Shown: piece by piece, positions 164 to 3,269 of the stretch
How the letters are laid out: each line of letters opens with the position of its first letter
Numbering within the stretch: the stretch's first letter is position 1
Origin: Elusimicrobiota bacterium
GTDB taxonomy: Bacteria > Elusimicrobiota > Elusimicrobia > UBA1565
Reading direction: 5' to 3'
Assembly (NCBI GenBank): GCA_016218495.1
Contig: JACRDU010000056.1
Location: 1 to 40,428, forward strand
DNA length: 40,428 nucleotides
Translations under genes and position numbers: made by a program
Notes under the pieces: model-generated
What the model was told of the DNA's origin: nothing
Seen by the model: the letters and a program-made list of their open reading frames with translations, nothing else
Database searches by the model: none

Positions 164-179
164 TGCTATAAAGGGAAGG

Positions 180-2075
180 ATGTTCCTGCCCATCCCCTAC
201 ATGGACGACAACCCCCTGGAGGGGGACAAGGCGCCCGTCCTGGCGCTGATGATAGCCAACGCCTGCGCGGCCGTGTTCTGGAAGCCGGAATGGTACGCCG
301 CCCTGGGCTTCGTGCCGGCTGCGCCGCACTGGTGGACCTTCCTCACCGCGCAGTTCCTGCATATCGGCGGGCTCCATCTGTGCGCGGCCATGTGGCTGCT
401 ATGGCTCTTCGGCGACAACGTGTCGAAATACCTGGGCTGGCGCTTCTGGCCGCTGTACTTCCTCTGCGGCGCCGCTGGTTTCGGGGCCCATTGGGCGCTC
501 AACCCGGGCTCGGCCGTCCCGGTGGTGGGCTCGGGCGGGGGCGTGGCGGGGGTGGCGGCCGCCTATGTCGTCTTCTTCCCGAAGGCGCGCCTGCGCTGCC
601 TCTTCCTGGCCCGCCGTTCGCGCGGCACCTTCTCGATCAGCGCGTTGTTCTTCGGGCTCATCGTCCTGGCGGCCAGCGTCCTGTTCATGGCGGGAACCCC
701 CGACTGGGGGCTTGCGTGGTCGGCTCAGGCCGGCGGGCTGGTGGCCGGCCTGGCCGCGGCGGCGGCGCTGCTGCGTCCGGCCGGCACGGGCGGGACGGCG
801 GTCGCGCTCTCCGGAGGGGCCGGGGTCCGGCCGCTGGCGGGCGTGGCCACCGTCGGAGCCGGGGCGGCGATCGAGGCCGCCATCCGGGAGGGCCGCGACT
901 CGGACGCTCTAGACGCCTTCGCCGCGGCCCTGCGGCGCAACCCCGCCTTCGAGCTGTCCGCTCCGGCCCAACTCTGGGCCGCCGACCGCCTGGCCCGGGC
1001 CGGCCACCCGCACATGGCGCGCAGCGCGCTCGAGCGCTTCCTCGCCAGGCATCCCCAGGACCCCAACCTGCCGCATGCGCTGAGCCTGCTGGGGTTCGTC
1101 CATCAGAACTTCCTGGGAGACCTGGATTCGGCGCTGGCGGCCTGGCGGCGGGCCCTGTCCCACCCCGCCGCTTCGGGGGCCCTCCTCAAGGACCTGGACG
1201 CGCGCATCAAGCCTGCCGAGGCCCGGCTCAAGCGCACCTTCACGGAGGCCCCGCGCGAGGACCTTACCTATGCCGTCGTGATGGAGGGCGGCGCGCCTCC
1301 GTCCCAGGACCAGGCCCGCATCATCGCGGAGTCCTCCGGCGACACGCCTGAGCATGTCGTCGAGCGGCTCAAGAAGGTCCCGGGTTTCGTGCTGCGCTGG
1401 GTGAGCGTCCGGGAGGCCTGGGACCTTTCCGAGAAGCTGGAGGCGGCGGGCTTCCCGGTCGTCGTCGTCGCGGAGCCCTCCCTGCTCAAGCTGGCCCCGC
1501 CCGAGGCCTCCGGGCCTCCGGAGGCGTCCTCCAACGGCCTGCGCCTGCGCCTGTCGGGGGGGCTGGAGGCGATGCTCCCCTGGGACGACTGCCTGTTCAT
1601 CGCCGCCGGCGCGGTGGGCTTCCCGAAATCATCCGAGAAGCAGCGCGGCCTCTTCGAATTGTCCGACCTGGACGCGGTGTTCCTGGGCCCCCGGTTCCGC
1701 CGCCGTCGGCGCGGCTGGGGTCTGGGGTCGATGGCCTTCGAGAAGCGCTACGGCTCCCTCGGTCATGCGCCGGAGCGGGAGTACGAGACCTCGCTCGTCC
1801 ACCTCCCCGTCCTGGAGCTGCTGCGGCGGGACGGCGGGCGCTACCGTTGGACCCCGAGCGAGGACCTCCAGGTCGATGAGGGGAGGCTGCAGGTCTACTT
1901 CGACGCGCTCCAGGAGCTGCTGACGGCCGCGCCGGGCATCCCGGTCGAACGCGGCGCGCTGGCGGCCTTCGAGCGCGCCTTCCCGGAGGGCAGCGTGTTC
2001 CCCTCGGTGGCGGAGTGGGACGCCCACCTGTTCTGGCAGGCCCAGCTGGCCGCGCTCAAGCGGGGCTCGGCCTGA
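180..2075 (+). CDS. Rhomboid-like pseudoprotease with TPR-like and L7/L12-like domains
   Basis: This 631-residue protein has a six-helix rhomboid-type membrane domain at residues ~15-200. The family landmarks are recognisable, but all three active-site positions are changed. The HLxxN helix reads HLCAAM, so Asn becomes Ala70. The GxSG motif reads GSGG, so the Ser position is Gly119. The AHxGG motif reads AQAGG, so His becomes Gln183. It should therefore bind or scaffold membrane proteins rather than cleave them (inference). Residues ~225-345 look like TPR helices. Residues ~362-432 resemble the ribosomal L7/L12 C-terminal fold, and 450-631 are unassigned. I chose the ATG at 180 because AAGGGAAGG stands directly before it and the rhomboid domain begins right after; an in-frame ATG at 18 would add 54 low-complexity residues. 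It converges on the next gene with 2 nt between stops. Confidence 0.8.
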   Translation: MFLPIPYMDDNPLEGDKAPVLALMIANACAAVFWKPEWYAALGFVPAAPHWWTFLTAQFLHIGGLHLCAAMWLLWLFGDNVSKYLGWRFWPLYFLCGAAGFGAHWALNPGSAVPVVGSGGGVAGVAAAYVVFFPKARLRCLFLARRSRGTFSISALFFGLIVLAASVLFMAGTPDWGLAWSAQAGGLVAGLAAAAALLRPAGTGGTAVALSGGAGVRPLAGVATVGAGAAIEAAIREGRDSDALDAFAAALRRNPAFELSAPAQLWAADRLARAGHPHMARSALERFLARHPQDPNLPHALSLLGFVHQNFLGDLDSALAAWRRALSHPAASGALLKDLDARIKPAEARLKRTFTEAPREDLTYAVVMEGGAPPSQDQARIIAESSGDTPEHVVERLKKVPGFVLRWVSVREAWDLSEKLEAAGFPVVVVAEPSLLKLAPPEASGPPEASSNGLRLRLSGGLEAMLPWDDCLFIAAGAVGFPKSSEKQRGLFELSDLDAVFLGPRFRRRRRGWGLGSMAFEKRYGSLGHAPEREYETSLVHLPVLELLRRDGGRYRWTPSEDLQVDEGRLQVYFDALQELLTAAPGIPVERGALAAFERAFPEGSVFPSVAEWDAHLFWQAQLAALKRGSA

Positions 2076-2077
2076 GC

Positions 2078-2500
2078 CTACTGGAGGCCGCCTTCCACGG
2101 CGTCGGCCACCATCGCGGAGAGCTTCGCCGCGGGAGAGGCGCTCAGGTTCGACCAGATCTCGCGTCTGAGCTTGGCGCCGAGCTGGCGCTCGAAGAGCGT
2201 GCGCTTGGACTTCGTGTCCTCGAGGACGACCTGGAGCTGGAGCTCGGTGAGCCCGCCGGCCGTCCCGGTTGGGGTGGCGGTGATGGACAGGGTCAGCTCG
2301 TCGGACAGGCTGGTCAGGGCGTGGGCGCTGGTGCCGTCCTGGCAGAGGATGCTCTCCTCGTACGACCTGCCGGCGTAGAACAGCTTGACCGAGACCGCGA
2401 ACTGGCCGGCGACCTTGGCGGGCGGCGGGGGCGTCTTCTCCTCCTCGGCGGCGAAGGCGGGCGCGGCGGCGAGCAGGACGGCGGCGAGCAGGGTCTTCAT
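2078..2500 (-). CDS. Secreted protein of unknown function
   Basis: A 140-residue protein starting MKTLLAAVLLAAAPAFA, a clear signal peptide with an AxA cleavage site, followed by a short acidic and Pro-rich linker and one small mixed domain (~110 residues). I recognise no family. The central part alternates hydrophobic and polar residues as in a beta sandwich, and a single Cys lies near the middle, so exported and probably periplasmic is the most that can be said. The start at 2500 is set by TGGAGG about 5 nt upstream; an in-frame ATG at 2521 would put seven residues before the signal peptide. Divergent from the esterase gene. Confidence 0.7.
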   Translation of the reverse strand: MKTLLAAVLLAAAPAFAAEEEKTPPPPAKVAGQFAVSVKLFYAGRSYEESILCQDGTSAHALTSLSDELTLSITATPTGTAGGLTELQLQVVLEDTKSKRTLFERQLGAKLRREIWSNLSASPAAKLSAMVADAVEGGLQ

Positions 2501-2520
2501 GGGGCCTCCAGGACATGTCA

Positions 2521-2526
2521 ATCATA
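2521..2526 (-). promoter_or_regulatory. -10 element of the secreted protein gene
   Basis: TATGAT on the minus strand, 20 nt before the ATG at 2500, leaves room for the GGAGG site in a short leader. I see no good -35. Confidence 0.35.
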
Positions 2527-2557
2527 GCCGGATGACGCTTGTCGCGCCAGACCTTGA

Positions 2558-2563
2558 TAGAAT
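2558..2563 (+). promoter_or_regulatory. -10-like element next to the esterase start
   Basis: TAGAAT ends 7 nt before the ATG at 2571 and no Shine-Dalgarno lies between, so the transcript would begin at or very near the start codon. No -35 at good spacing. Confidence 0.4.
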
Positions 2564-2570
2564 CAGTGGC

Positions 2571-3269
2571 ATGAAAAGCCTCGCACAGCCCCGCGTCGTC
2601 CGGTTCGGTCCGCTCGAGGCCGTCGAGTTCCCGGCCTCCGAGGCGGCTCCGGTCGTCGTCTGCATGCACGGCTACGGGGCCGACATGCGCGACCTGGCCG
2701 CCTTCGCCCTGGAGCTCGACCTCTGTGCCCCGCTGCGCTGGTACTTCCCGAACGGCCCGCTGGAGCTGCCCTGGGGCGGGCGGGCCTGGTTCCCCATAAG
2801 CGCGGACCGCCTCGCCGCCTACGAGCGGGGGGAGGGGGCCTTCGACCTTTCCTCTATAAGGCCCGAGGGGATGGACGAGGCCCGGGACGCCGTCCTCGCG
2901 ACCGTGAAGGACCTGGGCGTGCCTTGGGACAGGCTCATCATCGGCGGGTTTTCCCAGGGCGCCATGCTGTCGGTGGAGCTGGCCCTGGCCGCGCCCGAGC
3001 CGCCGCGCGGCGTCTTCCTGATGTCGGGGAACCTGGTCGACGCGGCGGGGCTCTCGGCGCGGGCGGCCGCGCGCAAAGGCCTGCGCTTCTTCCAGAGCCA
3101 CGGCACCCTCGACCCCGTGCTGGGCTACGACGGCGCGGTGAAGCTCAACGCCGCGCTCAACGCCGCGGGCTGGGAGGGGGAGCTCCTCTCCTTCGAAGGA
3201 CCCCACGCCGTGCCGCGCGAGGTCCTGGAAGGCCTCGGCGCCTACCTCGACCCCCTGCTCACATCCTAG
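2571..3269 (+). CDS. Alpha/beta hydrolase, carboxylesterase/phospholipase family
   Basis: A 232-residue cytosolic serine esterase of the Abhydrolase_2 type (YpfH/carboxylesterase-like), which hydrolyses carboxyl or thioester bonds of small or lipid substrates. The catalytic machinery is complete: the oxyanion-loop motif HGYGAD near residue 33, the nucleophile Ser128 in GGFSQG, Asp181 in GTLDPV and His212 in GPHAV. Length is normal for the family and there is no signal peptide. The ATG at 2571 is preferred over upstream in-frame codons because homologous sequence begins there and the opposite-strand promoter region lies before it. The substrate cannot be read from sequence. Confidence 0.88.
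   Translation: MKSLAQPRVVRFGPLEAVEFPASEAAPVVVCMHGYGADMRDLAAFALELDLCAPLRWYFPNGPLELPWGGRAWFPISADRLAAYERGEGAFDLSSIRPEGMDEARDAVLATVKDLGVPWDRLIIGGFSQGAMLSVELALAAPEPPRGVFLMSGNLVDAAGLSARAAARKGLRFFQSHGTLDPVLGYDGAVKLNAALNAAGWEGELLSFEGPHAVPREVLEGLGAYLDPLLTS

Follow-up and report, generated by a model that had tools for sequence, protein, structure and literature searches.

The open reading frame at positions 180..2075 (+ strand) of the window, by which is meant the whole 40,428-nucleotide stretch of DNA that was analysed, encodes a 631-residue protein (P0001) in which a rhomboid domain, a TPR domain, and a C-terminal orphan module are fused, and in which the three catalytic residues of the rhomboid are all replaced. 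Judging from its sequence, this protein is almost certainly catalytically dead, the loss of catalysis being as certain as a sequence can make it, and it would probably either bind other proteins without cutting them or be en route to loss. The probability that the pseudo-rhomboid has a selected role as an adaptor or scaffold is put at about 0.5, the main and serious rival being decay under relaxed selection. The gene is defined by the ORF call, by its translation, and by the orthologue from G005, a genome of the same family and another genus, whose start coincides with that of the window ORF. Its 631 codons begin with an ATG directly preceded by a purine-rich, putatively Shine-Dalgarno-like stretch (AAAGGGAAGG; 170..179, + strand), and the G+C content at codon positions 1/2/3 (0.73/0.53/0.93) gives the signature typical of a coding frame in this genome. 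The window opens at a contig end (C17), only 179 bp lying 5' of the gene.

A first, sequence-only reading of this DNA had recognized a rhomboid with the landmarks of its fold intact, followed by a TPR-like domain, and both assignments hold. In the six-transmembrane (TM) rhomboid domain (residues 1-200; 180..779, + strand), the Pfam family Rhomboid (PF01694) matches residues 50-199, over the six-TM core, with an E-value of 6.7e-20 and a score of 72.2 bits (cut-off 22.6). An AlphaFold2 (AF2) model of the full protein was built on a 34-sequence alignment, and its rhomboid core is matched by Foldseek to GlpG (2xow) with a TM-score of 0.70 by target length, which together with the Pfam match places the protein in the rhomboid superfamily. 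The TPR domain (residues 227-350; 858..1229, + strand) is indicated by a TPR_14 match at residues 263-296 (E=1.2e-5), by the AF2 helices at 227-350, and by a Foldseek match to the YbgF TPR (2xev; TMt 0.73). The model is confident for the rhomboid core and the TPR domain (block pLDDT mostly >85, and mostly 75-96 over residues 1-200), less sure for a beta-alpha-alpha-beta-alpha-beta unit at residues 364-431 (pLDDT about 60-73), and poor over the final 190 residues. From the six core TMs and the GlpG topology, the C-terminal tail is predicted to lie on the cytosolic side; the loops 'PKARLR...ARRSR' and 'SKYLGWR' carry positive charge.

The replacement of the catalytic Asn, Ser, and His, also proposed in the sequence-only reading, is borne out by aligning 79 rhomboids that come from the same order and from a wide range of phyla: 76 of them carry Asn/Ser/His at window positions 70, 119, and 183. 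On the + strand, the TM2 Asn (GlpG N154 position) is replaced by Ala70 (387..389), the nucleophile Ser (GlpG S201 position) by Gly119 (534..536), turning the GASG motif into GSGG, and the general-base His (GlpG H254 position) by Gln183 (726..728). The three exceptions are the window protein (Ala/Gly/Gln), the protein of its congener G002 (Thr/Asp/Val), and one row that ends before the His. Since the Ser and His positions fell outside both peptide patterns used to scan for homologues, and one of the two accepted Ala or Thr besides the Asn, the collection carries no strong bias towards intact copies. Both features that mark a rhomboid protease, the Ser in GxSG of TM4 and the His in TM6, are thus missing, and the oxyanion/TM2 pair is only half present: H66, equivalent to GlpG His150, is retained together with the other TM2 histidine, H61, whereas the Asn154 equivalent is Ala70. 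An intact Ser-His dyad at another place, which had been envisaged at the outset, was not seen and can be ruled out, since no His occurs in residues 105-230, TM4-TM6 included (H104 is the last before the soluble part), and the motif holds no indel; Ser118, one place before the usual Ser position, is left without a base. A single sequencing or assembly error is unlikely, because three separate codons are altered in one open frame and the congener lost the same three positions to other residues.

Full-length relatives with the domain order of the window protein were found in G005 (40% identity over residues 2-630), in G020 from another family (33-34%), in an Omnitrophota genome (L034, 25%), and in an uncultured bacterium (L064, 22%); unlike the window protein, all of them keep Asn/Ser/His and are predicted proteases. 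As these fused relatives in another genus, in another family, and elsewhere are intact, the fusion preceded inactivation: it is old, and the catalytic loss is younger. The large C-terminal extension, which had been presented as rarely described in bacterial pseudorhomboids, is not specific to a pseudoprotease, the same rhomboid-TPR-module architecture being found in the intact relatives. Among the relatives compared, all three catalytic residues are lost only in the window and in G002. These two are sisters in the tree (support 100/95), followed by G005 (97/76), and while their long branches make attraction possible, the grouping is backed by the E82S replacement common to window and G002, by the shared domain layout, and by taxonomy, all of which agree. 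The simplest account is one loss in the common ancestor of the two, followed by drift. The one-off decay among intact homologues that the sequence-only reading had foreseen is accordingly half right: the homologues are intact, but a loss common to two species of the genus, with the fold spared, is not a one-off. In the same way, a homologue altered at the same three positions does exist, but its replacements differ from those of the window, so that there is no conservation at the old active site. Contamination of the genome bin was considered and rejected, the tree placing the window gene with its own family.

The main rival holds that this genus no longer needed the ancestral active protease, which lost its site, drifted fast, and has already been deleted in a third congener, G001; this course of events is a substantial possibility, if short of an even chance. 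In its favour, constraint on the pseudo-rhomboid is clearly relaxed. Between the window genome (G000) and G002, dN reaches 0.54 for the pseudo-rhomboid, versus 0.21 for the neighbouring esterase and 0.15 for the active rhomboid of the genus, so that the dead copies evolve at about 3.7 times the rate of the latter; only dN is compared here, since synonymous sites are near saturation (most pairs have a pS of about 0.45-0.50) and absolute dN/dS is unusable. Likewise, the tree branches of the pseudo copies are long, at 1.5 and 2.42, while those of the active rhomboid in these species measure 0.21 and 0.31, and the differing replacements in the window and G002 also fit decay. Against it, the 22 non-catalytic columns conserved in at least 95% of sequences are kept at 20 positions in the window and at 18 in G002, which argues that constraint has not vanished. 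The losses are concentrated at the active site (hypergeometric P=0.004 for the window and 0.015 for G002, with E82S among the losses in both), the window value being inflated because the gene was chosen for that loss, so that the G002 value is the fairer test. Besides, no stop or frameshift occurs in the 631 codons of the window or in the 263 compared codons of the G002 copy; in so G+C-rich a genome, however, little can be concluded from an open frame by itself, since 263 codons remain stop-free in 37-59% of runs of neutral drift simulated at 92% G+C. The codon-position signature is also kept in both pseudo copies, with a G+C content of 0.53-0.55 at second versus about 0.93-0.97 at third positions, which speaks against decay as well.

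The genomic context adds to the case for decay, as the fused gene was not found in G001, a genome of the same genus rated 100% complete, while the neighbour genes are intact there: the gene block that precedes the pseudo-rhomboid in G002 directly adjoins the esterase that in the window lies downstream of the pseudo-rhomboid. At least one species can do without the gene, and the slot that holds it is variable. Lying between an outer-membrane-like gene and an Abhydrolase_2 esterase, this slot (window 2078-3269; L213:10715-12007; L201:7081-8495; L214:1-1179) differs across all three congeners. It holds the pseudo-rhomboid and a small secreted protein in the window, the pseudo-rhomboid in G002, where the end of a C1-peptidase-like gene stands beside the esterase on another contig, and nothing in G001. 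In the G005 genome, the active fused gene and the end of the DUF6901 gene upstream of it overlap (L005:797-1501), which suggests that the two are co-expressed. No conserved neighbourhood was found for the fused genes or for the standalone form of the module (18 module regions had no common neighbours beyond close relatives), and, the window starting 179 bp upstream, no partner gene emerges, which counts against the adaptor reading.

Both dead copies keep the six-TM fold and the TM2 histidines despite the catalytic loss, and the window protein also keeps its TPR/module architecture. According to the adaptor reading, which is the favoured one, an active rhomboid-TPR-module ancestor gave rise to a pseudoprotease within one genus. 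The rhomboid groove would still bind transmembrane clients without cleaving them, a partner, for instance FtsH or another AAA protease, or else an active rhomboid, would be docked by the TPR domain and the orphan module, and the pseudo-rhomboid could thereby work as an adaptor or a sequestering scaffold. In this context, YqgP (GluP) of Bacillus subtilis, in which TPRs likewise follow the rhomboid core at the C-terminus, is both a protease and an FtsH adaptor with a documented proteolysis-independent adaptor role, its catalytically dead S288A form still presenting MgtE to FtsH, and its N-terminal cytosolic domain is required for both roles (PMC7231995). This precedent counts for a binding-only protein, whereas the fast evolution of the dead copies, the differing replacements at the old active site, and the absence from G001 count against an adaptor. 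The two proteins also differ: YqgP is active, with an N-terminal metal-sensing domain and an extracellular TPR domain, while the window protein has no N-terminal domain, a tail predicted to be cytosolic, an extra orphan module, and no catalysis, so that its proposed role would correspond to the non-catalytic half of YqgP function. The fuller proposal, in which a recent, natural bacterial pseudoprotease from an active family would be dedicated to bringing membrane proteins to a cytosolic partner through the TPR domain and an undescribed module, is tentative and, taken as a whole, somewhat unlikely.

Another explanation, which is improbable, would make the pseudo-rhomboid a dominant-negative or regulatory partner that competes for substrates with the active rhomboids of the cell, L001 and L002, as proposed for iRhoms. 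Both are encoded in the same genome with intact Asn/Ser/His, and iRhoms are reported to inhibit rhomboid-dependent signalling (PMC3149277); yet no linkage or co-occurrence with active rhomboid genes was seen beyond their universality, and G001 has an active rhomboid (L009) without a pseudo copy. That the protein has remained a protease whose site is shifted or unconventional, Ser118 of the GSGG motif acting with another base, is hardly credible, as there is neither an indel in the motif nor a His anywhere in TM4-TM6, and the G002 motif has an Asp and no Ser.

With iRhoms and Derlins, the window protein shares a rhomboid fold devoid of the catalytic dyad, but it differs in its independent origin, in a bacterial genus and from an intact fused ancestor. 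The long N-terminal tail and the iRhom homology domain are absent from it, about 19 residues preceding TM1 and about 17 separating TM1 from the next helix in the AF2 model. The iRhom motif is GPxG, from which the GSGGG of the window differs. While rhomboid pseudoproteases are well studied in eukaryotes, the bacterial evidence found concerns YqgP, an active enzyme that serves as an adaptor on the side, and a search of the literature available without subscription turned up no description of a natural bacterial rhomboid whose entire active site is lost. The fused relatives that are still active, the two congeners with dead copies, and the one that lacks the gene form a matched set in which it can be asked when and why catalysis was dropped and binding kept; if the fuller proposal is true, it would provide a bacterial counterpart to a possible origin of Derlins.

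Residues 361-436 (1260..1487, + strand), with which the orphan module begins, are delimited by the AF2 model, alignments, and a profile, and contain the beta-alpha-alpha-beta-alpha-beta unit, which the sequence-only reading had called L7/L12-like. This likeness is confined to the order of secondary-structure elements at residues 364-431 in a low-confidence model, whereas similarity in sequence and profile is absent: PF00542 gives no match at E<=1 in the window protein, and hhalign of the segment against seven L12 C-terminal domains from relatives (drawn from thirteen loci) gives probabilities of 0.5-3.9%, a comparison limited by the shallowness of the L12 profile (Neff 1.6). The G005 orthologue is without the two middle helices of the unit. 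Homology to L7/L12 was therefore rejected at an hhalign probability below 4%, and the docking argument built on it falls, although a docking platform rather than a protease is still the most likely function. As for ribosomal protein L12 itself (PF00542), it was not found in G000, G001, or G002, one of which is rated 100% complete, and it is detected in relatives outside the genus at E about 1e-30; the L12 of the window genus may be missing from the assemblies or very divergent.

The second part of the module, beta-rich and followed by a C-terminal helix (residues 440-631; 1497..2072, + strand), is defined by an alignment with the standalone family and a low-confidence model; modelled on its own with AF2, the C-terminal module reaches a mean pLDDT of 49. 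Over its approximately 265 residues, the module also occurs across the phylum as a standalone protein, in 93 of 336 genomes and 37 of 99 genera, without a convincing match in Pfam (L118) or NCBIfam (L118, L120, L127). A profile made from standalone proteins only, the window being excluded, detects the window C-terminus at E=5e-6 (Z=1000) and the G005 tail at E=4e-9, shuffled tails giving 37 or worse, so that the window tail belongs to this family. Contig C313 of G002, considered as the missing C-terminal half of the G002 pseudo-rhomboid, was rejected as such and encodes a standalone module protein. The analysis thereby also exposes an undescribed, unnamed protein family that is common in the phylum, with examples at window 1260-2072 (+), L118:1396-2202, L120:1369-2169, and L127:1393-2142 (-).
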